This document shows positions 24,336 through 41,598 of a stretch of 64,000 bases of DNA, piece by piece. The position numbers and the translations under genes are program-made. The notes below the pieces were generated by a model. The model saw only the letters and a list, made by a program, of their open reading frames with translations. It did not search any database and was not told the origin of the DNA. This DNA is from Thermoanaerobaculum sp. Lineage in GTDB: Bacteria > Acidobacteriota > Thermoanaerobaculia > Multivoradales > UBA5704. How positions within the stretch are numbered: the stretch's first letter is position 1; each line of letters starts with the position of its first letter. The stretch spans positions 1-64,000 of the forward strand of contig JAJKHS010000116.1 in assembly GCA_021154885.1 (NCBI GenBank), written 5' to 3'.

Positions 24336-27300
24336 ATGAAGAACGCACTTCCTTGGCTGGCGCTGGCGCTCAGTCTGATGATTGGCTTCCCGGCAGCCCG
24401 CCTGGTGATGTCACCCCAGGAGAGGCCGGCGCCCGAAGTCGCCTCGGCTCAGGCTCCATCTCCAGTAGCGACTCCTGCCGTTACGGCGCCTGCCGGTGAT
24501 ACCTATGCATCCTGCAAGGCACCGCCGCCGCTGCCGGCCCCTTGTTGCTCATTGCCGCCGCCTCCTCCTCCAGCCTGGTGCGAGCCCGTGCGCCTGCTGG
24601 GCGAGTTCTTTGGCAAGTCGCTGGACTCCACAGCAAAACGCGACGACCTAATGACGATGCTGAAGCAAGCGGCTCTCGACGCGAGGTATGACCTCCACCT
24701 CATGGTGGCCCTGGTGCCGGCACCGCCTGATCCGCGGCTGGACCAGGCGCTGGAGGCCGTGCAGCGCGGCTTCGCACAGTCCGAATACTTGGCGGACCGC
24801 TTCTGGCTGCCGTGGGCCGGCGGGGATTCCAAGGACGCTGGCAGCAAGACGGCGCCGGGCCTCCTTCTCTTCCGCGGCCACGAGAAGCACGGAGCCTTCC
24901 TGAACAGCTTGGCTGTCGTCTTCGTCGTCGGGGAGACACCGAAGGCAGGGATTCAGAAAGTCGCCTTCCGCGAGGCTTTGAAATTGGAGTCCGTGCTGCA
25001 GGGAGCGGCCACCGATCCGACGATAGCGATCCTCGGTCCAACCTTCTCGGGCTCGATCGAGTCGCTGCGGCTGGCGGTGAGCTCCTGGCAGCGGCAGGAG
25101 ATTGGCCAGCAGGCCCCCCCGCCGCTCCTGTTTCGCGCCGCCACGGGCTCGGCGACGGCGACGGCGAAAGCCGTTGAGAAGCCGCTGGAGGGCGTGAGAG
25201 TCAAGATCTGCCGCACGGTGCTGCCGGACGAGATGCTGCAAGAGCAGACTCTCGGCTATCTGAGCAAAGAGATGGGGTGGGACTTGCGCCAGGTCGCCCT
25301 GCTCACCGAGGCGGACACGGCCTATGGCCGCAGCGTACTGACCACGGAAGGCCACAGCGTGCCGGTATTGCTCTCGTCGATCGTCAGTGTGCCATTTCCC
25401 AGCCACATCTCCGAGTTGCGGACCGCCACCGAAAAAGAGAAGGCTGCACAGGCCAAGGCCGCGGCAGCCACTCAGCCTGCGATCCCCGCCAATCGTCCGG
25501 AGCTCTCACTCGATCTCGCCGATCCTGGCCGGCCGGCCGATCTCGTTCCGACTTTCGACGCGTCCACTGTGCTCAGTAATGAGTTGGTGCTGGAGAACCT
25601 GTTGCGGGCGGTTTCCCGGGAAGGGATACGCTATGTCGGTATCCTGGCGACGGACGTTAAAGACAAGCTTTTCCTGGCTGAGCAGGTGCGGGCCCGGGCG
25701 CCTGACGCCATCCTCTTCACATTCGACAACAATCTGCTTTATGCCCATCCCCAGTACAACCAGACCATGGACGGTATGATCGTCCTTTCCAGCGCCCCTC
25801 TTTTCACCGAGGGGGCGCCCTGGCAACCGGGGTCGCTCTCGCCACCCGGTGGAGGAATGCGCCGGCAGTTCTCCAGCGAGCTCCAGCAGGGGCTCTTCGA
25901 GGCCGTACGCTACCTGCTGGGAAAGCGCGTCACGCGGCCCCGCGCCTGGATCATGGCCGTAGGCAACGGCTCATTGTGGCCTATCGCCCGCTTGAAAACG
26001 CCCCAGCCGCCGAGCGACTACCACTTGTGCAGCGAGATGGCGCTCAAGCCGGCCAGGCAGGGACCTATGCCGGAGCCCGGCCCTCCAGCCCCAGGGACTG
26101 GCTTCGCCAGCCGCGACGACCTCCAGGTGCTGCTGGTGGCGGTCGTGCTGTCGCTCTTCGCCGTGCGGCTGCGGCAGGTTGCCTTGCTCGCTCGCGTGGC
26201 GGGAGAACGGCCCAAGGGGTATACAGGGAACCGGCTCCTGCTGGTGCTCGGCACGGTGCTGCTGGCTCTCGCCGCCGGAGCGCTGCTGGCCGTGGGGAGC
26301 CTGCCCGCCTGGGGGCGCGGAATCGGCATCGATCGGCACGACGTGGATTGGCAATGGCCGCAGGTTGCCTACCTGGGCATGCTGGCCTTGGCCTATGCGT
26401 CGCTGGTAGTTGCCGCTGCCAGGGCGGCCCATTCACGGCTCGCGCCAGCGCGGACCGTGATCTGGATGTCAGGAGGCGTGGCGGCGCTGCTCCTCCTGGC
26501 TCTCGGCATGCGGTTCACCTGCATGCCGGGAGATCAGGTCGAGCTCTTTCATCTGCGGGCGCGGGCCATCTCGTCGGGGCTGTCGCCACTGATCTCGCTC
26601 GCCGCCATCGGCGGGGCCATCTACTCCTGGATACTCTGGGAGCTCAAACGACGCCGGTTGACCGCACGGCTGTCCATGGACTGCCCGGTGGCGACTCTAG
26701 GTGATCCGGCGATGGCAGGATCGGTCAAGACCCTCCGGGCGATCAACGGCCTCTTGGTCCATACTTTGCCGCGCGATCCTCGGCTTTGGCTAGCACCGGC
26801 TGTAGCTTTCCTGCCGCCGGTCTCACTGCTCTGGGCCACTGTACAGCCGGTCGCAGAGTCCCAAGGATATGGCCGCTTCTTCATCCTTTTCGTGACCCTG
26901 GCTCTGGCGCTCGCCGCCCTCTCCTATTACCGGTTCTTCCGCCTCTGGGTATGGACCTTGCGGATACTCCACCGGCTCGACAACGCCTCGCCGCGGGTGG
27001 CCGAGGCGTTTCAGGCGGTCTCCAAAGACCTCGGCTGGCGCCCCATCCAATCGTTCGGCTGGCAGATTCCGCCGTTCAAGTCGCTCACCCTCTCCCGGGG
27101 ACGGCTGCGGGCCCTGGTTGCCGCCGGCAAGCTCAAGCTGCCGGACGGGATGACGCCGCTGGAGAACTCCTTCAAGGACATCTTTGCCTACGAGACCGAC
27201 GACGGCTCACCGCAGGAGATCGACGCCCGCAACCGGCTGGAACGAATTTTTAGCGAGGTCTGCGAGAGCTTCGAAGGGCATGCCGGCGATTCCGAGGTGC

Positions 27301-27704
27301 GGCAGTTCGTGGCGCTGCGGGTGGCGGCCTGGCTGCGCTACGTCTTCGCCCACATGCGCAGTTGTCTGATCGGCGCCCTGACCTGCGCCCTGCTTTCGTT
27401 GATCGGAGTCACCGCCTACGCCTTCCAGCCGCGGCACTTCGTCTCCCTGGGGATCTGGCTCGCCCTGGCGGCTGCCATTGGGCTGACGCTGCTGGTCTTC
27501 GTGCAGATGGACCGCAACGCCACCCTGAGCTACATCGGCGGCACCACGGCGGGCAAGGTCAATTTCGACCGCACTTTCTTCTCCAAGCTCTTCACCTTTG
27601 TGGGCATCCCTCTGCTGGGCCTCATCGCCACCCAGTTCCCCGAGGTGGGGCACCTCCTCGGGCTGCTCGCCAGCCAACTCCTGCGCATCGCCGGCGGTGG
27701 GTAG
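24336..27704 (+). CDS. Large membrane protein with periplasmic-binding-protein-like (PBP1) receptor domain
   Basis: 1122 aa. N-terminal membrane anchor (residues 5-25), a Pro/Ala-rich linker with CCSLPPPPPPAWCE, then a soluble region (~residues 90-590) whose strands and turns resemble type-1 periplasmic binding proteins: TIAILGPTFSGSIESLRLA, YLSKEMGWDLRQVALLTE, YVGILATDVKDKLFLAEQV and DAILFTFDNNLLY. About seven membrane helices follow (residues ~600-880), then a soluble stretch (~900-1010; KSLTLSRGRLRALVAAGK, FEGHAGDSEVRQFVALR) and three C-terminal helices. No enzymatic domain is recognised. It could sense a small ligand outside and signal through the membrane. Unknown family to me. Confidence 0.6.
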   Translation: MKNALPWLALALSLMIGFPAARLVMSPQERPAPEVASAQAPSPVATPAVTAPAGDTYASCKAPPPLPAPCCSLPPPPPPAWCEPVRLLGEFFGKSLDSTAKRDDLMTMLKQAALDARYDLHLMVALVPAPPDPRLDQALEAVQRGFAQSEYLADRFWLPWAGGDSKDAGSKTAPGLLLFRGHEKHGAFLNSLAVVFVVGETPKAGIQKVAFREALKLESVLQGAATDPTIAILGPTFSGSIESLRLAVSSWQRQEIGQQAPPPLLFRAATGSATATAKAVEKPLEGVRVKICRTVLPDEMLQEQTLGYLSKEMGWDLRQVALLTEADTAYGRSVLTTEGHSVPVLLSSIVSVPFPSHISELRTATEKEKAAQAKAAAATQPAIPANRPELSLDLADPGRPADLVPTFDASTVLSNELVLENLLRAVSREGIRYVGILATDVKDKLFLAEQVRARAPDAILFTFDNNLLYAHPQYNQTMDGMIVLSSAPLFTEGAPWQPGSLSPPGGGMRRQFSSELQQGLFEAVRYLLGKRVTRPRAWIMAVGNGSLWPIARLKTPQPPSDYHLCSEMALKPARQGPMPEPGPPAPGTGFASRDDLQVLLVAVVLSLFAVRLRQVALLARVAGERPKGYTGNRLLLVLGTVLLALAAGALLAVGSLPAWGRGIGIDRHDVDWQWPQVAYLGMLALAYASLVVAAARAAHSRLAPARTVIWMSGGVAALLLLALGMRFTCMPGDQVELFHLRARAISSGLSPLISLAAIGGAIYSWILWELKRRRLTARLSMDCPVATLGDPAMAGSVKTLRAINGLLVHTLPRDPRLWLAPAVAFLPPVSLLWATVQPVAESQGYGRFFILFVTLALALAALSYYRFFRLWVWTLRILHRLDNASPRVAEAFQAVSKDLGWRPIQSFGWQIPPFKSLTLSRGRLRALVAAGKLKLPDGMTPLENSFKDIFAYETDDGSPQEIDARNRLERIFSEVCESFEGHAGDSEVRQFVALRVAAWLRYVFAHMRSCLIGALTCALLSLIGVTAYAFQPRHFVSLGIWLALAAAIGLTLLVFVQMDRNATLSYIGGTTAGKVNFDRTFFSKLFTFVGIPLLGLIATQFPEVGHLLGLLASQLLRIAGGG

Positions 27705-27768: not shown

Positions 27769-28698
27769 ATGACGAGAGCGAAGTGCGTCCGGCTGTGCGC
27801 CGGAATGGTGCTGGCCGTTCTGGCCGCCATGCCGGCGATGGCGCAGCAGCAGGACTTTTCGAAGGTGGAGATCAAGGCGATCCCGGCCGCCGGCAACGTC
27901 TACATGTTGCTGGGGTCGGGGGGGAACATCGGGGTCTCGGCCGGCCCCGACGGCGTCCTGATCGTGGACGACCAGTTCGCGCCGCTGGCCGACAAGATCC
28001 GGGAGGCCGTCAAGGGGATCAACCCCGGCAGGCTCAAGTTCGTGCTCAACACCCACTTCCACGGCGATCACACGGGGGGCAACCCGGTCTTCGGCACCGA
28101 GTCCACCATCATCGCCCACGACAACGTACGCCAGCGGCTGGCGGCCGGTTCCGTCGTCCGCGGCAACAAGACGGAGCCGATGGCGGCGGCGGGCCTGCCG
28201 GTGATCACCTTCGCGGACGCGGTCTCCGTCCACTTCAACGGCGAAGAGATCAAGGTGGTCCACTTCCCCCACGGCCACACGGACGGCGACAGCATCGTCT
28301 TCTTCACCAAGTCCAACGTGGTGCACATGGGCGACGACTTCTTCAACGGCCTCTTTCCCTTCGTCGACCTGGAGAGCGGCGGCAGCGTCCAGGGGTTGAC
28401 GGACGCCGTGGCCAAGGTGCTCTCTCAGATCCCGGCCGATGCCAAGGTCATCCCCGGCCACGGCCCGCTGTCGGACGTCGAGGGGCTCAAGAAGTTCCAC
28501 CGCATGCTGGTGGAGACCACGGCGGTCGTGCGCAAGGGGATGGCGGCCGGCAAGACCCTGGAGCAACTCCAGGCCGCCGGCCTGCCCGACGAGTGGAAGA
28601 GCTGGAGCTCCTTCATCGACACCAAGGGCTGGATCGCCACCATCCACGACAGCTTCGGAGCGGCGAAGAAGAACCCGGCGGGATCGAAGCACCACTAG
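27769..28698 (+). CDS. Exported metallo-beta-lactamase-fold hydrolase
   Basis: 309 aa with a signal peptide ending in MPAMAQQ. Zinc motif THFHGDHTGG (HxHxDH), then FPHGHTDGDSIVFF (third His) and KVIPGHGPLSD (last His) follow in the expected order. This is the subclass B3-like/SoxH-type periplasmic MBL-fold group rather than a proven antibiotic hydrolase; no specific substrate is deducible. The stop overlaps the convergent hemE stop by 4 bp. Confidence 0.88.
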   Translation: MTRAKCVRLCAGMVLAVLAAMPAMAQQQDFSKVEIKAIPAAGNVYMLLGSGGNIGVSAGPDGVLIVDDQFAPLADKIREAVKGINPGRLKFVLNTHFHGDHTGGNPVFGTESTIIAHDNVRQRLAAGSVVRGNKTEPMAAAGLPVITFADAVSVHFNGEEIKVVHFPHGHTDGDSIVFFTKSNVVHMGDDFFNGLFPFVDLESGGSVQGLTDAVAKVLSQIPADAKVIPGHGPLSDVEGLKKFHRMLVETTAVVRKGMAAGKTLEQLQAAGLPDEWKSWSSFIDTKGWIATIHDSFGAAKKNPAGSKHH

Positions 28699-29735
28699 GG
28701 GTTGAGGGACAACCGCTTCACCGCCTCCACGAACGCCTTCGCGTTCTCGACCGGGACCATGGGCAGGATGCCGTGGCCGAGGTTGACCACGTGGGGGCCA
28801 CCGCTCCCCTCCCGGAGGAGGTCCGCCGTGCGGCGCTCGATCTCCGGGATGGGGGCGAGCAGGGCCGCCGGGTCGAGGTTCCCTTGCAGGACGCGTGGAC
28901 CCACGATCCGGCGCACGGTGGAGAGCGGCTGGCGCCAGTCGACCGACAGCACGTCCACGGGCAGCTCCGCCAGGGCGGGGAGCAGGTGCGAGCCGCCGTT
29001 GACGTAGTAGATGAGCGGCACTTCACCTTTCAGCGCGTCGACGATCCTGCGCAGCGGCGGGAGGGCGACGGCGCGCCAGCGCTCCAGGTCCAGCAGGCCG
29101 CCCCAGGTGTCGAAGAGCTGGAGGGCTTGAGCGCCGGCGGCGATCTGGCCTTTCAGGTAGGCGATCGAGGTGCCGGCGACGCGGTCGAGGAGCAGGGCGA
29201 GCCCCTCGGGGTCGCCATAGCTCCAGGCCAGGAGGTGCTCGAAGTGCTTCGAGCCGCCGCCCTCGACGAGATAGGCGGCGAGCGTCCACGGTGTGCCGCC
29301 GAAGCCGAGGACGGGTACCCGGCCGTCGAGCTCGCGACGGACGAGGCGCAGGGCGGCGAAGACATAGCCCAGGGTCTCGTCCACCTCCGGGTTGCGCAGG
29401 CGGGCGACGTCCTCGCGGGTGCGCACCGGGTGAGGGAAGCTGGGGCCGTCCCCCTTGACGAACTGCAACTCGGCGCCCATGGCCTCCAGCGGCAGCAGGA
29501 TGTCGGCGAAGAGGATGGCCGCGTCGACGCCGAGGATATCGACCGGCTGGATCGTCACCTCGGCGGCCAGCTCGGGGGTCTTGCACAGGGTGAGGAAGTC
29601 CACCTTCTGGCGGATCGCCCGGTATTCGGGGAGGTAGCGGCCGGCCTGGCGCATGATCCATACGGGCCGGCGCTCCGTGGCCTCGCCACGGCAGGTGCGG
29701 AGAAAGAGATCGTTCACGGCCCGGGAGGATAGCAT
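28695..29735 (-). CDS. hemE: Uroporphyrinogen decarboxylase
   Basis: 346 aa. The UroD signature WIMRQAGRYLPEYR is at residues 26-39, and GFGGTPWTLAAYLVEG and LIYYVNGGSHLLPAL follow; the conserved Asp lies in LFADILLPLEAMG. Decarboxylates uroporphyrinogen III to coproporphyrinogen III in heme synthesis, in the cytoplasm. Convergent with the MBL-fold gene. The ATG at 29735 was kept; an alternative GTG lies seven codons on. Confidence 0.97.
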   Translation of the reverse strand: MLSSRAVNDLFLRTCRGEATERRPVWIMRQAGRYLPEYRAIRQKVDFLTLCKTPELAAEVTIQPVDILGVDAAILFADILLPLEAMGAELQFVKGDGPSFPHPVRTREDVARLRNPEVDETLGYVFAALRLVRRELDGRVPVLGFGGTPWTLAAYLVEGGGSKHFEHLLAWSYGDPEGLALLLDRVAGTSIAYLKGQIAAGAQALQLFDTWGGLLDLERWRAVALPPLRRIVDALKGEVPLIYYVNGGSHLLPALAELPVDVLSVDWRQPLSTVRRIVGPRVLQGNLDPAALLAPIPEIERRTADLLREGSGGPHVVNLGHGILPMVPVENAKAFVEAVKRLSLNP

Positions 29736-29796
29736 TCCCTCTGCAAGAGGAGGGGGTCGGGGTGACGAGGGTTCGCGTGGAGTACACTGGCAGTCG

Positions 29797-31602
29797 ATGT
29801 TGAGACTCGTCGCTTATGCCCCCGATGGTGTCCGGCGCTTTCCCGTTCACCGCAGTGAGCTGATCATCGGGAGCTTCCCCGAGTGCGACATCTGCCTCCC
29901 CTACACCGGCGTGGCGCAGCGGCACGCGCGGCTGCTCTACGACGGCAACCAGTTGCGGATCGAGGATCTGGGCAGCCGCCGCGGCCTCCTGGTGAGCGGC
30001 CGCAAGGTGAAGGAGGCGTCGCTGGAGGTGCTGGACGAGATCCGGCTGGGCGGGGTGACCCTGCTGGTCGAAGACGTGGTCCCCGGACCGGAGAAGCCCC
30101 CGCCGCCGACACCCGCGGAGCCGATCGGACCGCCGCGCATCACCCCGGAGCGCATGATCGAGCACCTGAACCGGATCTCCGAGTGGGTGCTGGCCGACGC
30201 CGAGAGCCGTACCACCTCCGAAGCCCTGGTCCAGGAGGTGCTCGCCGACTTCGGCGGCGGCGCCCTCTTCCTCCTCCTGGGCGATGAGGAGAACGCCGGC
30301 GTCAAGCTGGTGGTGGCAACCGATCAGGCGTGGCTGGCCAGCGGCGAGGGGTTGCTCGAGCAGATCCTCCGCCGTCGCGCTGCCGAACCCGCCGCAGCGG
30401 CGAACCGCTGCTTCGAGGGCGAGCTGGCCGGCGCGCCGGCCTGGATCTGCCATCTCACCTTCGGCGCCATGGACCGCAAGTACGCGATGATGGTCGCCTT
30501 CCCCCGTTTCCGGCCGGAGGAGCTGGGGTGGTCGCCGATGGCGGCCCTGAGCGGCCTCGGCCACCTCCTGGTGCTGGGCCTGGTGCACCACGTGGGGTGG
30601 TACGAGCCCATCCTGCCGGGCCACCCGGGACAGCAGGACCTGACCCTGGACCCGAACCTCGTGGTGGGCGAGTCGCTGGCCATGAAGCAGGTCGTGGAGC
30701 AGCTCCGGGCCGCGGTCGATCCCCCGGTCCACGTGCTCCTCTCCGGCGAGCCGGGGGTGGGCAAGGACCTCCTTGCCCGCTCCCTCCATCTCTCGGGGCC
30801 GCGGCGGCATGGGCCGTTCGTGATCGCGAGCTGCGGCGGCGCGCGTCCCTTGCAGATCGAGGCCGACCTCTTCGGCGCCGAGGTGCCCGGCAAGGGCGGT
30901 CCCGTCCGGCGCGAGGGCAAGCTCCTGCTGGCCCACGGCGGCACCCTCTTCCTCGACGAGGTGGAGCAGCTTCCCATGGAGCTTCAGGCCCGGCTGGTCC
31001 GCTTCCTGCGCTCGGGCGCGGTGGAGCCCGCGGGGAGCACCGAGGCCCACGCCGTCGACGTGCGCCTGGTGGTGGGGAGCCGCGGCACGCTCGACTCGGT
31101 GGTGACCCGCGACCTCTTCCGGGTCGATCTCGCCTACCGGCTGTCGCAGCTCGTCATCGACGTGCCGCCGCTGCGCGACCGCCGGGAGGATCTGCCGCTG
31201 CTCATTCAGTCCTACATCAACCGGTTCTGCCACGAAACGGGCAAGCGTATGCAGGGGATCACAGTCAAGGCCATGTCCGCCCTGCTGAGCTACGACTACC
31301 CGGGCAACCTGGCGGAGCTGGAGAACATCGCCCGCCAGCTCGTCTACATGGCGCCGGCCAAGGGGCCGGTGGACGTCAACCTGCTGCCGGACCGGGTGCG
31401 CAACGGTACCCTCATGGCCACGACGCGGGTGGACGCCGCCTCGGACCTGGAGCTGGAGCACCTGGTCAGCGGCACCGAGCAGAGCGCCATCCGCGAGGCC
31501 TTGCGCCGCACCAACGGCAACAAGTCCCAGGCCGCCCGCCTCCTGGGCTTGTCGCGCAACGGCCTGGCGATCAAGATGGAGCGCTACGGGCTGAAAGCCT
31601 GA
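29797..31602 (+). CDS. FHA + AAA + Fis-type regulator lacking GAFTGA
   Basis: 601 aa. An FHA domain (residues ~5-95; ELIIGSFPECDICLP, HARLLYDGNQLRIEDLGSRRG) comes first, then a GAF-like sensor (~110-270), an AAA+ core with Walker A GEPGVGKD (~317) and Walker B GGTLFLDEVEQLP (~381), and a C-terminal Fis HTH (NGNKSQAARLLGLSRNG). Bacterial enhancer-binding proteins carry GAFTGA after DLFG; here that place reads DLFGAEVPGKGG, so sigma-54 contact may be lost. FHA points to phosphothreonine input from a Ser/Thr kinase not in the window. The gene is divergent from hemE. Confidence 0.85.
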   Translation: MLRLVAYAPDGVRRFPVHRSELIIGSFPECDICLPYTGVAQRHARLLYDGNQLRIEDLGSRRGLLVSGRKVKEASLEVLDEIRLGGVTLLVEDVVPGPEKPPPPTPAEPIGPPRITPERMIEHLNRISEWVLADAESRTTSEALVQEVLADFGGGALFLLLGDEENAGVKLVVATDQAWLASGEGLLEQILRRRAAEPAAAANRCFEGELAGAPAWICHLTFGAMDRKYAMMVAFPRFRPEELGWSPMAALSGLGHLLVLGLVHHVGWYEPILPGHPGQQDLTLDPNLVVGESLAMKQVVEQLRAAVDPPVHVLLSGEPGVGKDLLARSLHLSGPRRHGPFVIASCGGARPLQIEADLFGAEVPGKGGPVRREGKLLLAHGGTLFLDEVEQLPMELQARLVRFLRSGAVEPAGSTEAHAVDVRLVVGSRGTLDSVVTRDLFRVDLAYRLSQLVIDVPPLRDRREDLPLLIQSYINRFCHETGKRMQGITVKAMSALLSYDYPGNLAELENIARQLVYMAPAKGPVDVNLLPDRVRNGTLMATTRVDAASDLELEHLVSGTEQSAIREALRRTNGNKSQAARLLGLSRNGLAIKMERYGLKA

Positions 31603-33911: not shown

Positions 33912-35600
33912 ATGAGCCCGACCACCATCGCTCCTGCCTCCACCGCCCGACCCCGCACCGTGCGCGCGCCGCGCGGCACGGAGATCTCCTGCCGCAGCTG
34001 GCAGCAGGAGGCCGCCCTGCGGATGCTGATGAACAACCTCGATCCGGAGGTCGCCGAGCGGCCGCAGGAGCTGGTGGTCTACGGCGGCTCGGGCAAGGCG
34101 GCCCGCAACTGGGAGTGCTTCGAGGCGATCGTGGCCACCCTGAAGCGGCTGGGCGACGACGAGACGCTCCTCGTCCAGTCCGGCAAGCCGGTGGCCGTCT
34201 TCCGCACCCACGCCGAGGCCCCGCGGGTGCTGATCGCCAACTCGCTGCTGGTCCCTCACTGGGCCACGGCGGACGAGTTCCGCCGGCTGGAGGGGCTCGG
34301 GCTCACCATGTACGGCCAGATGACCGCCGGCTCATGGATCTACATCGGCACCCAGGGCATCCTCCAGGGGACCTACGAGACCCTCGCCGAGTGCGCCCGC
34401 CAGCGCTTCGGCGGCTCGCTCGCCGGCCGCCTCGCCGTCACCGCCGGCCTCGGCGGCATGGGCGGCGCCCAGCCGCTCGCCGTCACCATGAACGAGGGGG
34501 TCTGCCTGGTGGCCGAGGTGGACCCCAGCCGCATCGAGCGCCGCCTCGCCACCCGCTATCTCGACCGTGTGGCGCCGGACGTTCCCACCGCCGTGGCCCA
34601 GGCGCTCGCGGCCCGCGACCGCCGCGAGGCCGTCTCCATCGCCGTCGAGGCCAACGCCGTGGACCTGCTGGAGCACCTGGTGGCCACCGGCCTGGTGCCC
34701 GACGTGCTCACGGATCAGACCTCGGCCCACGACGCCCTTCAGGGCTACGTCCCCCACGGCCTGCCCTTCGCAGAGGCGCTGCGCCTGCGCCAGGACGACC
34801 CCGCAGGCTACATCGCCCGCGCCATGGCCTCGATGGCGGTCCACGTGCGGGCCATGCTGGCCCTGCAGGAGCGCGGCGCCGTCACCTTCGATTACGGCAA
34901 CAACCTGCGCGGCCAGGCCCTCCAGGCTGGGGAGGGGCGGGCCTTCGACATCGGCGGCTTCGTGCCGCTGTTCATCCGGCCGCTGTTCTGCGAAGGCAAG
35001 GGGCCGTTCCGCTGGGCCGTGCTCTCCGGCGACCCACAAGACCTCGCGGCCACGGACGAGGCCATCCTCGACACCTTCCCGCACGACGCGGCGCTGGCGC
35101 GGTGGCTCCGCATGGCCCGCGAGCGCGTCGCCTTCCAGGGGTTGCCGGCGCGCATCTGCTGGCTCGGATACGGCGAGCGGGCGAAGGCCGGCCGGGTGTT
35201 CAACGAGCTGGTGGCCTCCGGCCGCGTCAAGGCGCCCATCGTCATCGGCCGTGACCACCTCGACTGCGGCTCCGTGGCCTCGCCCAACCGCGAGACCGAG
35301 GCGATGCGCGACGGCTCGGACGCCATCGGCGACTGGCCCATCCTCAACGCCCTCCTCAACGCCGTCAACGGCGCCACCTGGGTCTCGGTCCACCACGGCG
35401 GCGGCGTGGGCATCGGCTACTCCCTCCATGCCGGCATGGTCATCGTGGCCGACGGCACCGAAGCGGCGGCCCGGCGGCTGGAGCGGGTCCTCACCGGCGA
35501 TCCCGGCATGGGCGTGGTTCGCCACGCCGACGCCGGCTATCCGGAGGCCCTCGCCTGCGCCCGCGAGCGCGGGGTGGACCTGCCGATGCTGCCGCGGTGA
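33912..35600 (+). CDS. hutU: Urocanate hydratase
   Basis: 562 aa, the family length. Recognised by [55 protein letters not shown] (NAD+ site), [22 protein letters not shown] and the C-terminal [20 protein letters not shown]. Catalyses the second step of histidine degradation, urocanate to imidazolone propionate, with tightly bound NAD+. Other hut genes are not next to it. The stop lies 4 bp before the start of the sensor kinase gene, so the two are co-transcribed. Confidence 0.97.
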
Positions 35601-35604
35601 GAGA

Positions 35605-38600
35605 GTGAGCGAGCCGCTCCGCGCCTCTCGCGAGCCCTGGCGGCGGGCGCTGCTCGAGATCGTGCTGGTGGCCGCCCTGGTGGCGGCGCCGCTGCTGCCC
35701 GCGCCCGGGTCGGCTCTCGCCGCCCTCGTCCTCTCCGTCGCCTGGCTTGCGTTGCGCGATCACCGGGAGCGGCTGATCGCCGGTCCCCTGCTCATCGTGG
35801 CGGTGGTCTCCCTGATCGCGGGGTGGGCCCTGAGCCGCGGCGAGCGGGCCGCCCGGACCGAGTGGGCGAGGGAGACACGGCAGGAGTACGAGCGCCTCTG
35901 GGACGGTCTCCAGGAGGAGGCCGAGGCCGCGGCGCACCGGGTGGAGGGGCTGCGGAAGTCCCTGGCTGCAACCCCTCCCGCGCCAGCCGTGGCCTCCCAG
36001 GCTTTCCAGCGGCTGGAAGACGTGGCGGGGCTGGGGAAGGGGCGGCGCGCCCTGCTGCTGCTCGATCCGGACGGCGCCCCCGTGGCCTGGGCCGGCGAGG
36101 GCCTGCTGCACGAGCTCCCGCAGGAGCTGCCCAGCTCCGGCCCCTACTACCGCGCCAGCTTCAGCGCCGTGACCCTGCTCGCCATCCGCCCGCTGGACGG
36201 GAGCCGCCGCCCCTGGCGCATCGCCGCTGGCGCGAGCTTCGGCACCGACGCCCTGCCGTTCCCCTCGGCCCGCGCCGCCCGCTGGGCCCTCGCGGACACG
36301 CCGCCGCAAGCCCTGCCGGGCACCGACGCCGTGACCTTGCCGGGGCTCCCCGTGCTCGTCGTCGAGCGGGCTCCCGCCGGCGGCGCGCACAAGGGCCGGC
36401 CGCTGACGGACCGCGTGGCCTGGGTGGCCCTCGGGCTCGCCCTCCTGGCGCTGGCCGTGGTGCGCGGTCTGCGCCACCTGCTGCCGGGAGGGCCGCCGCC
36501 CGGCGAGGAGCCCGCAGCCTGGCCGGTCACCCCGCTGGTGCTGGGCGGGCTGGTGGCGCTGGCCGGGGTTTTTCCTGTCCCCCTGCCGGCCCTGGTTGTG
36601 CTGCTCGCCGGCCTGGGGTTCGCGGCGCTGAGCCTCCATGTCCGCGCCACCGCCGGCGAGCGCATCCCTGTCGCCCTGAAGGGAGGGGCCGCCGTCCTGC
36701 TGTTGCTGCTGGCCGCCTGGGCGCTGCAGCGCGTCCTGGGTCCTCGCGACCTCGCCGCCGCCATCGTGGTCTCCGCCGAGTCCTCCGCCCTGCGGCTGGG
36801 CCTTGCCGGGGCGGCCTTCGGCCTTCTCGTCCTCGCCGGGCGGCGGCGAGACCGGCCGGCCACGGGGCCCGTCAGCCGCTGGGCCTGGATCGCCGTCACC
36901 CTTCTGCTCGCGGGAGCGGCCCTGTGCGACCAGCCGTTCGCCGCCGTGCCCCTGCTCGCTGCCGGGGGCGCAGCGGCCGGGGCCTGGGCCGACCTCCGGC
37001 GCTTGCAGACCGGAATGTCCCTCGTGGTGCTGATCCTGCTCTCGGCCTTCGCCGCCGCCGGCGCCTGGGAGACCGCCTACCGGCTGGCGTTGCGCGCCTA
37101 CGCCGGGGACGAGTTGCTCGTCCGCCTGGCCCCGCCCACGCGTGCCGACCTCGCGTCCGTGGCCGGCGAGCTCCGCGGTCATTTCCTGAAGTCCGACCTC
37201 CAGAGCCTGGTGCCCCGCGCTCCGGCCAACCTGGAGCGGCAGGACCTGGCCTACGCCCTCTGGAAGGACTCCCCCCTGGCTCGCCACCACTCCCTTTCCG
37301 CGCTGGTCGTGGAGACGCCGGGCGGCCCGTCGTCGTTCTCGTTCGGCATGCCGCTGACCGATCAGGGGGTGGTGGACACCGGGTCCGAGCGTTGGGGGGA
37401 CCTCCGCCTGCCGATGTGGGATGGCTTCCTGATCTCCGGCGAGACACCGCTGCGCCTGGGCGGCCGCCCCTGGGGGACCATCCGCTACTGGCTGCTGCCG
37501 CGGCCCGGCTTCGAGGTGCACGACTGGCGGCGCCTCTCCGAGGTGGACGTGGGGCTGCTCAAGGGGGGGCCGGTGGCCGGCTCCGCCGAGGGGATCGCCG
37601 ATCCGGCCCTCTACGCTCTGTATACCCCGGACGGCCGGGCCGCCCTCTCCCCCTGGGAGGAGGAGCCGCCGCTGCCTGCCAGCCTGGAGCGGTCCCGCGG
37701 CTGGCTCTCCCATACCGTGGTGGAGACCCCCTCCGGGCCGGCGCGGGCCTGGGCGCGCGTCTCGCGCCAGGGTTGGGAGGCCGTCTACCTCCCCTTCCTC
37801 GCGCCGCTCGAAGGCCTGGAGCGGACGGGCAACTGGAGCGTCGGCGTGGTGGCCCTGCTCGCCTTGGCGGCGCCGTCGATCCTGCTCCTCGCCCTCCCCC
37901 GGGCCGCGTTCCGCGACCTGCTGCGGCGTACCCTGCGCTCCTACTCCAAGCGCCTGACCCTCATCTACACGGTCCTCCTGCTCGTCCCGCTGGTGGCGCT
38001 CTACTTCGTCCTCGTGAGCGCGATGGAGGAGCGCCTGCGCCGCGACCAGCGGACGGCCGGCGAGGCGGCCCTGAGCTCCGCCCAGCAGCTCCTCGCCGAG
38101 CAGTTGCTCAAGGCGCCGCCCGGCTTCGGCGTCGACACCGCCTTCGGCGACGGGCTGCTCATCTATCTCTCCGGCGTCGTGCGCCACGAGGTGAACCTCT
38201 ACTGGGGGAGCGCCATCCACTCCTCCAGCCGCCACGAGCTGTTCACGGCGGGCCTGCTGCCCAAGCGCATTCCGGGGGAGATCTACCGCCGCCTAGCCCT
38301 GCTGGGCTACGGCCTCTCGTCGCGCACCAACCGGGTGGGCGACACCACCTACCTGGAGATGTACGCCCCCGTGCGCGTGCCGGGCAGCCCGCTGGGCAGC
38401 AAGCGCCTCTTCCTCTCCATGCCGTTGCTCGCCCAGCAGGAGGAGTCGGCCCGGCAGCTCGCCGAGCTGCGCCGCCACGGTTTTCTGGCGACGGCTGCCC
38501 TCTTCGCCCTGCTGGTGGCCGTGGGCCGGCACCTGGCGAGCAACTTCACCCGGCCGCTCATGCAGCTCGTGGAAGGGACGCGGCGGATCGCCGTGGGCGC

Positions 38601-39714
38601 GCCGTCCCTCGACCTGGCCCCCACCGAGCTCGAGCTGGCCGCCCTGGTCGAGGCCATCGACGAGATGGCCCGCCGCATCGCCGAGGGCCGCGAGCGCCTG
38701 GTGCGCGAGAAGCAGGTGGTGGAGCGCATGGTGGAGAACATCACCTCCGGCGTCGTCTCCCTCGACCGCGAGCGCCGGGTGCTGCTGCACAACCGGGTTG
38801 CCGCCGAGCTGCTGGGCACCGCCGTGGGGGAGAGCCTGGAAGAGGCCGTGGCCCGCTCCGAGTGGCTGGCCCCCATCGCCGCCTTCCTGCGCACGGCCGG
38901 CGCGGAGATGGAGCGGTCGACGGTGCGCCTGCGGGGCGCCGGCGGGGGAGGAGAGCGCGAATGGTCGCTGGTCTGGGTCCCCCTGCCGGGCGCCGGCGAG
39001 CCCTCGGCCCTGCTGGTGGTGGAGGATGCCACCGAGGTGCTGCGCGGTCAGCGCCTCCTGGCCTGGGCCGAGATGGCGCGCATGATCGCCCATGAGATCA
39101 AGAACCCGCTGACCCCCATCCGCCTCTCGGCCGAGCACATGCGGGAGGTCTACCAGCACGACCCGGACCACTTCGACCGTGTCTTCGAGCGCTGCACCCA
39201 CAACATCCTCACCCAGGTGGACGAGCTGCGCTCGATCGCCTCCGAGTTCTCGACCTACAGCTCCATCCCGCGGATCGATCCCCAGCCGGCGGACCTGGTG
39301 GCGAGCATGGGGGACCTGGTGGAGGGCTACCGCGCGGCCCCTCCCCAGGGGGTCGAGGTGGATTTCGACGCCGAGCCCGAGACCCTGGTCACCCGCTTCG
39401 ACGCCAAGCTCCTCGGCCGGGCGGTGCGCAACCTGATCGAGAACGCTCTGCGGGCGAGCGCCGGCGGCGGCCGGGTGGTGGTGCGCATCGACCAGCAGAA
39501 CGGCTTCGCGCGGATCGCCGTCCAGGACTCCGGCCCCGGCGTCCCGCCCGACCTCCTGCCGCGCATCTTCGACCCCTACTTCTCGACCCACGACACCGGC
39601 ACCGGCCTGGGGCTCCCCATCGCCCGCCGCATCGCCGAGGAGCACGGCGGCGACATCACGGCGAGGAACCGGCCGGAGGGCGGGCTGGAGGTGGTGGTGA
39701 CGCTGCCGGTGTAG
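35605..39714 (+). CDS. Giant NtrY-like sensor histidine kinase
   Basis: 1369 aa, about twice the usual length. An N-terminal membrane segment pair, a periplasmic-like domain with MxxL-rich coiled part (residues ~80-270), a second hydrophobic block of several helices (~275-500), another large extracytoplasmic part (~505-735), two helices around 745-800, a HAMP region (~985-1020, ASNFTRPLMQLVEGTRRIAVG), PAS (~1040-1150), HisKA with MIAHEIKNPLTPI (phospho-His ~1163) and HATPase (NLIENALRAS, DSGPGVPP, GTGLGLPIARRI). GTG start at 35605, 4 bp after hutU. No response regulator is adjacent. Two extra membrane/extracytoplasmic blocks make this unlike ordinary NtrY. Confidence 0.85.
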   Translation: MSEPLRASREPWRRALLEIVLVAALVAAPLLPAPGSALAALVLSVAWLALRDHRERLIAGPLLIVAVVSLIAGWALSRGERAARTEWARETRQEYERLWDGLQEEAEAAAHRVEGLRKSLAATPPAPAVASQAFQRLEDVAGLGKGRRALLLLDPDGAPVAWAGEGLLHELPQELPSSGPYYRASFSAVTLLAIRPLDGSRRPWRIAAGASFGTDALPFPSARAARWALADTPPQALPGTDAVTLPGLPVLVVERAPAGGAHKGRPLTDRVAWVALGLALLALAVVRGLRHLLPGGPPPGEEPAAWPVTPLVLGGLVALAGVFPVPLPALVVLLAGLGFAALSLHVRATAGERIPVALKGGAAVLLLLLAAWALQRVLGPRDLAAAIVVSAESSALRLGLAGAAFGLLVLAGRRRDRPATGPVSRWAWIAVTLLLAGAALCDQPFAAVPLLAAGGAAAGAWADLRRLQTGMSLVVLILLSAFAAAGAWETAYRLALRAYAGDELLVRLAPPTRADLASVAGELRGHFLKSDLQSLVPRAPANLERQDLAYALWKDSPLARHHSLSALVVETPGGPSSFSFGMPLTDQGVVDTGSERWGDLRLPMWDGFLISGETPLRLGGRPWGTIRYWLLPRPGFEVHDWRRLSEVDVGLLKGGPVAGSAEGIADPALYALYTPDGRAALSPWEEEPPLPASLERSRGWLSHTVVETPSGPARAWARVSRQGWEAVYLPFLAPLEGLERTGNWSVGVVALLALAAPSILLLALPRAAFRDLLRRTLRSYSKRLTLIYTVLLLVPLVALYFVLVSAMEERLRRDQRTAGEAALSSAQQLLAEQLLKAPPGFGVDTAFGDGLLIYLSGVVRHEVNLYWGSAIHSSSRHELFTAGLLPKRIPGEIYRRLALLGYGLSSRTNRVGDTTYLEMYAPVRVPGSPLGSKRLFLSMPLLAQQEESARQLAELRRHGFLATAALFALLVAVGRHLASNFTRPLMQLVEGTRRIAVGAPSLDLAPTELELAALVEAIDEMARRIAEGRERLVREKQVVERMVENITSGVVSLDRERRVLLHNRVAAELLGTAVGESLEEAVARSEWLAPIAAFLRTAGAEMERSTVRLRGAGGGGEREWSLVWVPLPGAGEPSALLVVEDATEVLRGQRLLAWAEMARMIAHEIKNPLTPIRLSAEHMREVYQHDPDHFDRVFERCTHNILTQVDELRSIASEFSTYSSIPRIDPQPADLVASMGDLVEGYRAAPPQGVEVDFDAEPETLVTRFDAKLLGRAVRNLIENALRASAGGGRVVVRIDQQNGFARIAVQDSGPGVPPDLLPRIFDPYFSTHDTGTGLGLPIARRIAEEHGGDITARNRPEGGLEVVVTLPV

Positions 39715-39804
39715 GCGTCATATAAGCAGGTGGGTCTTCGCTGTCGGGAAGCCAAATCTGCTACTGTCCGCAGTCGATCTCACGGCCGTTTCTGCGAGAC
39801 TTCC

Positions 39805-41598
39805 ATGATCCGTTCCCAAGGCAAGGCCTTGCTTGCGCTCGTCCTCCCTGTCGCCGCCGGGGCGGCTTCGATCGCCTTTTCCTGGCTGCGATGGATCAGC
39901 CCCTTCGTCGATTCGGGGCGCGAGATGGACGTGCCGGCCCGCCTGCTGGCCGGCGAGCGGCTGTACCGCGACGTCACCTACAACTACGGTCCCGCCGGGC
40001 CCTGGCTGAACGCGGTCGCGCTGCGCGTCTTCGGCCACCGCTTCGCTGCCCTTGAGTGGGTGGGCCTGCTGCTCTCGATCGCCATCCTCGTCCTGCTGTT
40101 CCGGCTGACGATGCGGGCCGGGAGCTTCCTCTCGGCGGTCGTCGCCACGACGGTGACGGCGACCATCTGCCTCGGCGCGCCCTGGGGAGGATCGTTCATC
40201 TTCCCCTACGCCTTCGCCAACCTCTACGGCCTCGCCGGCAGCCTGCTGGCGCTGCTGTGCTTCGGCCGCGAGCCGGCCCGCGGCCGCGACCTGGCCCTCG
40301 CCGTCCTGGGTCTCACTCTGTCGGTGACGGCGCGCCCGGAGCTGGGGACGGCCACGGTACTGATTCTCCTCATCGCCGGGATGCGTTCCAGCGACTGGCG
40401 GCGGAGCGGCCGCCAGGCCCTGCTGGTCGTCGGCACCGCCGGCGTGGTTTCAGTGGCTGTCTATGGTCTGGCCTTCGCGGGGATACCCTGGCAGACCCTC
40501 CGGCGCGAGGTGCCGTACCTGCACCTGGGATCGCTGCCGCCGGAGTGGCAGCATTTCTACAAATGGGCCGCAGGGCTCCTGCATCCGTGGCTCTCCCTGC
40601 GGATCCTGTTCGTGGGCGTGGTTGCCGACGTGCTGCTGCTGGCCGCTTTCGCCTGGCTGTTGCGGCCCCGGCCCGTTGCCGGCGAAGACGCCGCGGAACT
40701 CCGGTGGCCGCCGGTCTGGCTCGCCGCCGAGGTCCTGATCCTGGCGGCGGCCCTGGCCACCTGGCAGGTCATGGCTGGAGACAACGGCCTGCCTCCCCTC
40801 CTCTTCCCCCTGCCGGTGCTCGCTCCGATAGCAGCGGCTGTCCTTTTCCTCCGGCGGCCGCTCGGAGCGCGGGCCCGCGACCGTTTCATGCTCTGCGCCC
40901 TGGCCGCCGTCGTGGCCTCGCGGGTCCTGCTCAGCCTCGACGTCGGGCCGGCCATGGAAGCCTATGACGCCCTGGGCGTGCCCTGCGCCTTGGCCATGGC
41001 CTGCGTCCTGGGCTTCGACGTGCTGGCACCCCGTCTTCCCGATCCCGCCACCTTCCGGCGGCGGCTCGCCGTCGCCCTGCTGCTGTTCGGCGGCCTCTTC
41101 CTCTATCAGTTGCGGAGCGTCGATGCCAGGGCCGTCCGCCTCGACACCCGGGCGGGCACTCTGCGGCTGCGGGAGCGCGAGGCGCGCGCGGTGAACCAGA
41201 CCCTGGATTACCTCGCTCAGAATGCGCGCCCCGGCGATGCCCTCGCCACCTTCCCCGAAAGCGGCTTCTTCAATTTCATCACCGGCCTGCGCAACCCCCT
41301 GCGCGAGAACCTGATCCTGCCCGGCGTGCTGGACGATGCCGGCGAGGCCGAAGTCCTCCAGCGGCTGGACCGCGAGAAGCCGAGGTTCTTCCTCCTCTGT
41401 TACCGTCCCACCTGGGAGTTCGGCACCGCCCGTTTCGGCAAGGGCTACGCCGCCCATCTCTGGGGGGAGGTGGAGAAGCGGTACACGCAGGTCGCATCAT
41501 TCGGCTCGCCGCCTCACATCCCCGGGCAGAAGGGGAGCTGGTTCGTGCGGATCTATGAGCGGAGCCCGGCCCTCACCGAGGGTGCGGCCGAGCGGTGA
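39805..41598 (+). CDS. GT-C membrane glycosyltransferase-like protein
   Basis: 597 aa. About twelve membrane segments (residues ~8-460); the first loop has FVDSGREMDVPARLLAGERLY and YNYGPAGPW, the motif pattern of the PMT_2/RgtA-type GT-C group (acidic residue in the first loop, then YGPxGPW-like). The C-terminal ~150 residues (NQTLDYLAQNARPGDALATF) are soluble and face outside. The ATG at 39805 was preferred over upstream starts because the hydrophobic segment begins soon after. Predicted to transfer a lipid-linked sugar; the target is unknown. Stands alone between the kinase and dipeptidase genes. Confidence 0.7.
   Translation: MIRSQGKALLALVLPVAAGAASIAFSWLRWISPFVDSGREMDVPARLLAGERLYRDVTYNYGPAGPWLNAVALRVFGHRFAALEWVGLLLSIAILVLLFRLTMRAGSFLSAVVATTVTATICLGAPWGGSFIFPYAFANLYGLAGSLLALLCFGREPARGRDLALAVLGLTLSVTARPELGTATVLILLIAGMRSSDWRRSGRQALLVVGTAGVVSVAVYGLAFAGIPWQTLRREVPYLHLGSLPPEWQHFYKWAAGLLHPWLSLRILFVGVVADVLLLAAFAWLLRPRPVAGEDAAELRWPPVWLAAEVLILAAALATWQVMAGDNGLPPLLFPLPVLAPIAAAVLFLRRPLGARARDRFMLCALAAVVASRVLLSLDVGPAMEAYDALGVPCALAMACVLGFDVLAPRLPDPATFRRRLAVALLLFGGLFLYQLRSVDARAVRLDTRAGTLRLREREARAVNQTLDYLAQNARPGDALATFPESGFFNFITGLRNPLRENLILPGVLDDAGEAEVLQRLDREKPRFFLLCYRPTWEFGTARFGKGYAAHLWGEVEKRYTQVASFGSPPHIPGQKGSWFVRIYERSPALTEGAAER

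Follow-up and report, generated by a model that had tools for sequence, protein, structure and literature searches.

A gene at positions 29797 to 31602 of a 64,000-nucleotide stretch of Thermoanaerobaculum sp. DNA (contig JAJKHS010000116.1 of an 8.2-Mb assembly, GCA_021154885.1; the stretch is referred to here as the window) encodes a regulator that, judged by its sequence, is homologous to the activators of sigma-54 RNA polymerase yet fails the tests that define them. The sigma-54 contact loop (GAFTGA) is absent in all orthologues found, and the catalytic and sensing residues of the AAA+ domain and the phosphothreonine (pThr)-reading residues of the FHA domain have decayed across the family. 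A new conserved segment at the loop position is kept under purifying selection, together with the Fis-type helix-turn-helix (HTH), the first arginine finger, and the overall fold. We consider it probable that this protein, derived from sigma-54 activators, regulates sigma-70-type promoters independently of sigma-54, without a motor and under GAF control.

The frame at 29797-31602 is open throughout. A second in-frame ATG is located 5' of the chosen start, at 29653; the start at 29797 was preferred because the orthologue alignment begins there and a TANNNT hexamer (TACACT) lies 8 nt 5' of it. The gene and its parts are as follows.

29783 to 29788, + strand: TACACT, a sigma-70-type -10-like hexamer in a leaderless-promoter arrangement
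29797 to 31602, + strand: regulator gene (601 aa; ATG start, TGA stop), encoding FHA, GAF fold, degenerate AAA+, and Fis HTH
29797 to 30078, + strand: FHA domain (residues 1-94), lacking the Arg, Ser, and Asn that contact pThr
30139 to 30600, + strand: predicted GAF-fold sensor domain (residues about 115-268), recognized by structure only
30655 to 31173, + strand: AAA+ core (residues 287-459); the window copy has an intact Walker A (GEPGVGKD) and an intact Walker B (FLDE)
30871 to 30924, + strand: segment replacing the GAFTGA loop, FGAEVPGKGGPVRREGKL, conserved and modelled as a short beta-hairpin
31174 to 31419, + strand: AAA+ lid (residues 460-541), with Ala506 at the sensor II Arg position
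31453 to 31596, + strand: Fis-type HTH, strongly conserved, with an invariant LSRNGL

Pfam profiles matched the protein at residues 23-85 (FHA), 290-454 (Sigma54_activat), 460-541 (AAA lid), and 561-597 (HTH_8). The scores for PF00158 (Sigma54_activat; 136 bits, curated cutoff of 20.2) and the Fis HTH (48 bits, cutoff of 22) establish homology to the family. There was no Pfam match to a receiver domain and the N terminus is an FHA domain, so the protein is not a two-component response regulator by domain content. A GAF domain was not matched by Pfam either. When residues 110-286 were modelled separately with AlphaFold, a GAF-type fold was obtained (pLDDT, 85; pTM, 0.81), which resembled the GAF domains of A. 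aeolicus NLH1 (4g3k; Z of 11.3, 4.2 Å over 142 residues) and NifA (Z of 9.5). A Rag-like GTPase chain also scored a Z of 10.6 against this model, and a Foldseek search with it returned no match under an E value of 1e-3; the predicted GAF assignment is based on fold and position, not on sequence. The full-length model has a pTM of 0.47, and its domain orientation is not readable. Taken with the orthologue alignment, the Pfam matches and the AlphaFold fold bear out the preliminary description of this gene, which had proposed FHA, GAF-like, AAA+, and Fis domains without GAFTGA.

The loop position is occupied by DLFGAEVPGKGG (residues 357-368, from 30865). None of the 21 distinct orthologues has GAFTGA (two further rows are exact duplicates and stand outside this count), and each of the 21 carries [LMI]FGAE[VIL]xG[KR] in its place. 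Residues F359, G360, A361, E362, G365, R372, and G374 are invariant in an alignment of 18 sequences. An alignment with homologues had been suggested as a check in the preliminary description, and the absence of the loop in 21 of 21 distinct orthologues rules out both a sequencing error and a chance loss of the motif. The rpoN gene was found in 20 of the 21 carrier genomes, including that of the window (the remaining genome is 81% complete), so a lack of sigma-54 does not explain the loss of the loop. The earlier expectation that the regulator should be unable to activate sigma-54 RNA polymerase is supported by this family-wide loss despite the presence of rpoN. A search of the window for the sigma-54 promoter consensus gave 58 matches, compared with 86 expected by chance, and hence no signal.

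The decay extends to the AAA+ motor, for which we take the roles of the switch Asn, sensor I, sensor II, and Arg finger positions from work on PspF and NtrC. Residues were counted in the target family (n = 20), in a related group with VATGV-like loops (n = 11), and in full-length GAFTGA-type paralogues of the window's genome (n = 21), and are given here in that order. The GAFTGA-type motif itself occurs in 0, 0, and 21 sequences. The Walker A Lys is present in 13, 11, and 21; the Walker B Asp in 6, 11, and 21; and the Walker B Glu in 3, 10, and 21, such that both residues of the Walker B DE pair are found in only 3 of the 20 target proteins, compared with all 21 paralogues. The switch Asn (0, 8, and 21), the sensor I Asn (0, 9, and 16), and the sensor II Arg (2, 11, and 21) are nearly or completely lost from the target family, while the first Arg finger is universal (20, 11, and 21) and the second is frequent (14, 11, and 21). 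The window copy retains Walker A, Walker B, and both Arg fingers, and carries Ser345, Arg429, and Ala506 at the switch Asn, sensor I, and sensor II positions, respectively. The Walker A Lys and the Walker B DE pair are intact together in this copy and in two others (G002 and G040); parsimony on the tree places two changes at the Walker A Lys and two at the DE pair within the family. The ATPase activity raised as one possibility in the preliminary description is accordingly doubtful: switch, sensor, and Walker B residues have been lost across the family, and what speaks for it is the integrity of Walker A and Walker B in the window copy. This copy may bind ATP, and the retained Walker A Lys suggests that some other family members may still bind or hydrolyse it.

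The FHA domain has fared similarly. We take the pThr pocket of FHA domains to be formed by a conserved Arg, Ser, and Asn. Each of these residues is missing in all 19 orthologues that have an N terminus (G022, G083, and IP29b, which have none, and LBACB, a duplicate of G091, were left out), compared with 11 (Arg), 13 (Ser), and about 7 (Asn) of 13 other FHA domains of the same genome, as read by eye; the Asn is weak evidence, because only about half of those domains have it. The genome has 47 Pkinase matches. On the contig, which begins about 30 kb upstream of the regulator gene, the nearest Ser/Thr kinase match is 84.7 kb away, compared with 2.7 to 3.8 kb for the four other FHA activators of the genome. 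Two non-FHA activators are also near a kinase match (L018 at 0.7 kb and L006 at 7.8 kb), so proximity by itself does not demonstrate pairing. In the genomes of six relatives, no kinase lies within 25 kb of the regulator gene among the matches listed. A kinase regular expression run over 21 neighbourhoods gave one match, in L066, and carries little weight since it recovers only two of four known cases. Control by a Ser/Thr kinase through the FHA domain, which the preliminary description had put forward, is not supported by these results, and no Thr kinase that might feed this domain was found nearby.

Of 148 genomes in the class, 21 (counting the one that holds the window) have an orthologue, with one match per genome and all in one order; in an even sample of the phylum, 4 of 247 genomes had an orthologue at an E value of 1e-75, all in the same order. 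Identity to the window protein among the compared rows ranges from 46 to 83%. Database relatives are labelled Acidobacteria or Acidobacteriota, including several Thermoanaerobaculia and one member of Holophagales. No orthologue was found in G001, a genome of the window's genus (1,250 contigs; 93% complete). A 3.5-kb contig labelled as a cyanobacterium (L076; JAAUTJ010000594.1) carries the gene in two pieces and probably reflects a binning error; it was not used because of its broken frame and doubtful origin, nor was the weak match L079. Simple Nei-Gojobori estimates of dN/dS in four pairs (dS is near saturation in the pair G044/G033) were 0.03 to 0.19 for FHA, 0.05 to 0.44 for GAF, 0.01 to 0.17 for AAA+, 0.002 to 0.16 for the lid, and 0.02 to 0.15 for the HTH, with looser values of up to 0.72 in the linker. 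The gene is under purifying selection and encodes a maintained protein.

The VATGV-like group, which has VATGV or a near variant at the loop and no GAFTGA, and which keeps its motor, is closest to the target family in the tree. With the motif columns included, the target family falls among this group (98/88); without them, it is sister to the group (90/78), and the large branch that holds both also takes in the paralogues L018, L020, and L021. Without the motif columns, the data are compatible with a single VATGV-like clade (p-AU of 0.43), and we claim no nesting order between the two groups. The tree and the motor counts left out G028 (masked stretch), LBACB and IP29b (exact duplicates of G091 and G083), and the paralogues L022 and L023; weak matches from the window's own genome (L026 to L030) were not taken as paralogues. 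Members of the VATGV-like group are L019/L152 (from the window's own genome, C69:34054-35796), L050 to L060, and L153 to L159. FHA, Sigma54_activat, and Fis HTH profiles match the own-genome member, whose gene comes immediately after a Ser/Thr kinase gene (L160). Close relatives of the own-genome member were found in 5 of 199 phylum-sample genomes, all of this class (E value of 1e-85), and the loops of all eight matches read [VI]ATGV. In the FHA domains of the group, the Arg is replaced in eight of nine readable proteins and the Ser is kept.

A TANNNT hexamer occurs 3 to 13 nt 5' of the start codon in 14 of 19 loci; seven other bins of equal width have one in 0 to 2 of 19. This pattern suggests a leaderless sigma-70-type promoter for the regulator gene itself and is silent on what the protein regulates. 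Inverted repeats shared among the regions 5' of the gene in 19 loci were sought as candidate binding sites, with no result above shuffled sequences. The neighbouring genes of the window that bear on function are as follows.

28695 to 29735, - strand: hemE (uroporphyrinogen decarboxylase), divergent neighbour of the regulator gene
33912 to 35600, + strand: hutU (urocanate hydratase), interposed between the regulator and kinase genes in 5 of the 15 loci with a linked kinase
35605 to 39714, + strand: NtrY-like membrane histidine kinase (1,369 aa; PAS_4, HisKA, and HATPase_c)

The hemE gene is divergent and within 200 bp of the regulator gene in 10 of 19 loci with upstream sequence. The kinase, which we presume to be NtrY-like from its HEIKNPLTPI motif (NCBIfam gave kinase matches below the cutoff only), follows on the same strand in 15 of the 17 loci whose downstream sequence reaches 4 kb or more. 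It is the next gene in 10 of these and lies behind hutU in 4; in the window, an M42-type peptidase gene and hutU precede it. In the remaining 2 of 17 loci, it is not within 10 kb. Of 72 genomes in the order, 65 encode this kinase (about 1,350 aa; window copy and L138 to L151), many of them without the regulator, and no response regulator was noticed next to it. Among 11 regulator-less genomes examined, hutU is directly upstream of the kinase in 9, and hutH is nearby in 6 of those; the lasting link is therefore that of hutU and the kinase. In G014 and G047, two regulator-less genomes of one genus, the kinase has no hutU upstream and no activator there by crude tags. Two regulator carriers (G003 and G018) also have this kinase behind hutU on other contigs. 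Crude motif expressions run over 21 neighbourhoods found no response regulator or other sigma-54-type activator, the response-regulator expression being one without a positive control. The link between regulator and kinase is suggestive only. A role of the regulator as a substitute for NtrX beside this kinase was considered and dropped, as 9 of the 11 regulator-less genomes have hutU in that place and 2 have neither hutU nor an activator.

Other genes recur around these loci. A gene for an FHA-GAF-SpoIIE phosphatase (by Pfam on the L070 copy) or a relative of it is found just upstream of the regulator gene or hemE in five loci (L067:208-1857, L070:8315-9985, L073:7212-8861, L068, and L071). 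The window has at 24336-27704 an open reading frame for a 1,122-aa product without a Pfam match. A gene 3' of the kinase is present in many loci, for example at 39730-41598 of the window (no Pfam match) and at L070:16187-17896 (a weak DUF3142 match, below the cutoff).

The regulator shares the AAA+ fold, the lid, the first arginine finger, and the Fis HTH with sigma-54 activators such as ZraR, FleQ, LuxO, FlrC, NtrC1, and PspF (about 30 to 38% identity; TM scores by target of about 0.83 to 0.91, for chains comprising the AAA+ domain only). Unlike them, it lacks GAFTGA and the switch Asn, sensor I, and sensor II residues. Myxococcus enhancer-binding proteins with an FHA domain, reportedly described by Jelsbak in 2005, are said to have the same FHA, AAA+, and HTH design, and GAFTGA-type FHA activators are encoded in the window's genome as well (L001, L002, and L004); the regulator differs from such proteins in having an FHA domain without pThr residues and no neighbouring Ser/Thr kinase match. 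The sensor domains of TyrR presumably differ from the FHA and GAF domains of the regulator, and we take the N-terminal domain of VpsR to be receiver-like, unlike that of the regulator. The top Foldseek match of the whole regulator model was Brucella NtrX. VpsR, which binds c-di-GMP according to its PDB title, is a structural match with 28% identity (PDB 7v2b).

The sigma-54 loop is missing, as in the regulator, from Rhodobacter capsulatus NtrC, Caulobacter NtrC, and Caulobacter NtrX, and the two NtrC proteins are reported to act at sigma-70 promoters (PMC10274813, PMC12421884). Caulobacter NtrC, though devoid of GAFTGA, is reported to still need conserved AAA+ residues, and its DNA-binding mutants raise sigma-54-dependent flagellar genes (PMC10274813, PMC12421884); by analogy, loop loss alone may leave room for some sigma-54 effect. 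VpsR is described as another GAFTGA-less, sigma-70-acting relative (printed VspR in PMC10274813). Both NtrCs and NtrX are receiver-type response regulators, whereas the regulator has FHA and GAF domains in the receiver's place; the NtrCs use ATP binding or hydrolysis, whereas the target family has lost its motor residues. Enteric TyrR belongs to the activator family, has lost GAFTGA in part of its clades, and acts at sigma-70 promoters, usually as a repressor (PMC1173090). Azospirillum TyrR is reported to carry GAFTGA and is called sigma-54 dependent (PMC6375630), so TyrR is not GAFTGA-less everywhere. The repressor or sigma-70 activator role raised in the preliminary description finds precedent in the R. 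capsulatus and Caulobacter NtrCs and in TyrR, and may hold for the regulator by analogy. Searches of the open-licence PMC literature returned nothing on GAFTGA with an FHA domain, pseudo-ATPase enhancer binding proteins, or Thermoanaerobaculia enhancer-binding.

In the reading that we favour, the regulator would oligomerise through its AAA+ ring surface and bind DNA through its Fis HTH. We infer that it most likely acts in the manner of the GAFTGA-less sigma-70 regulators, with its AAA+ domain serving as a ring or dimer scaffold. It would be switched by a ligand of its GAF domain, by contact with the NtrY-like kinase encoded alongside it, or by both, and sigma-70-type promoters near the regulator's own locus would be repressed or activated without ATP-driven remodelling, the most plausible targets being its own operon and the hutU-kinase genes. 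ATP in the window copy would perhaps still be bound, as a structural ligand. A mechanism like that of R. capsulatus NtrC, in which ATP binding without hydrolysis drives oligomerisation and activation of sigma-70 promoters, is possible though unlikely. It accords with the intact Walker A and Walker B of the window copy, with the retention of the first Arg finger (20/20) and the Walker A Lys (13/20), and with the need of R. capsulatus NtrC for ATP binding but not hydrolysis, as reported in PMC10274813; the family as a whole does not depend on ATP, however, because 7 of the 20 orthologues have lost the Walker A Lys and 17 the DE pair. Somewhat more doubtful is that the regulator forms a two-component pair without a receiver domain, as the direct DNA-binding output or the scaffold of the adjacent NtrY-like kinase. 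The position of the kinase (downstream in 15 of 17 loci, next gene in 10) fits this arrangement, as does the lack of a response regulator or other activator by the crude expressions in 21 neighbourhoods. However, the regulator has no phosphoacceptor domain, the kinase is absent within 10 kb in 2 of 17 loci, and its occurrence (in 65 of 72 genomes across the order) far exceeds that of the regulator (in 21 of 148 across the class), which may be a passive neighbour given the kinases behind hutU in 9 of 11 regulator-less genomes and on other contigs of G003 and G018.

It is improbable that the regulator acts as a dominant negative, mixing into the rings of active sigma-54 activators and poisoning them. 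The retained AAA+ fold and first Arg finger, the lost motor residues, the presence of rpoN, and the 24 further matches to sigma-54-type activators that the genome contains (some of them truncated) are compatible with such a role, but a pure poison would not need the strongly conserved HTH, and identity to the nearest own-genome paralogue is only 42% over the AAA+/HTH part. Very improbable is a DNA-binding ATPase controlled by a Ser/Thr kinase, for which the presence of an FHA domain and of 47 Pkinase matches could be cited; the pThr-contacting residues are absent in 19 of 19 orthologues, and the kinase distances on the contig and in the six relatives described above argue against it. A sequencing error or decaying pseudogene, favoured by nothing except the missing motif, has a negligible probability: the same loop is found in 21 of 21 distinct orthologues, and this conservation, together with purifying selection, rules out the pseudogene reading.

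GAFTGA-less activators have so far been known one by one. Here, a series of losses is seen within one class, from GAFTGA-type FHA proteins to VATGV-like proteins, which have lost the loop and kept the motor, and to the target family, which has lost the loop and most motor residues. This series lets one ask what purpose an AAA+ ring serves once ATP-driven remodelling is gone. It also carries a warning for annotation, since PF00158 names such proteins sigma-54 activators despite the missing defining residues. A tentative, rather doubtful extension of these observations is that the family comprises catalytically dead AAA+ regulators in which the loop was rebuilt as a conserved contact hairpin, GAE[VIL]xG[KR]xGPVRREGKL, that serves a different partner, for instance sigma-70 RNA polymerase or the NtrY-like kinase. 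If so, the NtrY-like kinase would signal to DNA without any receiver domain.
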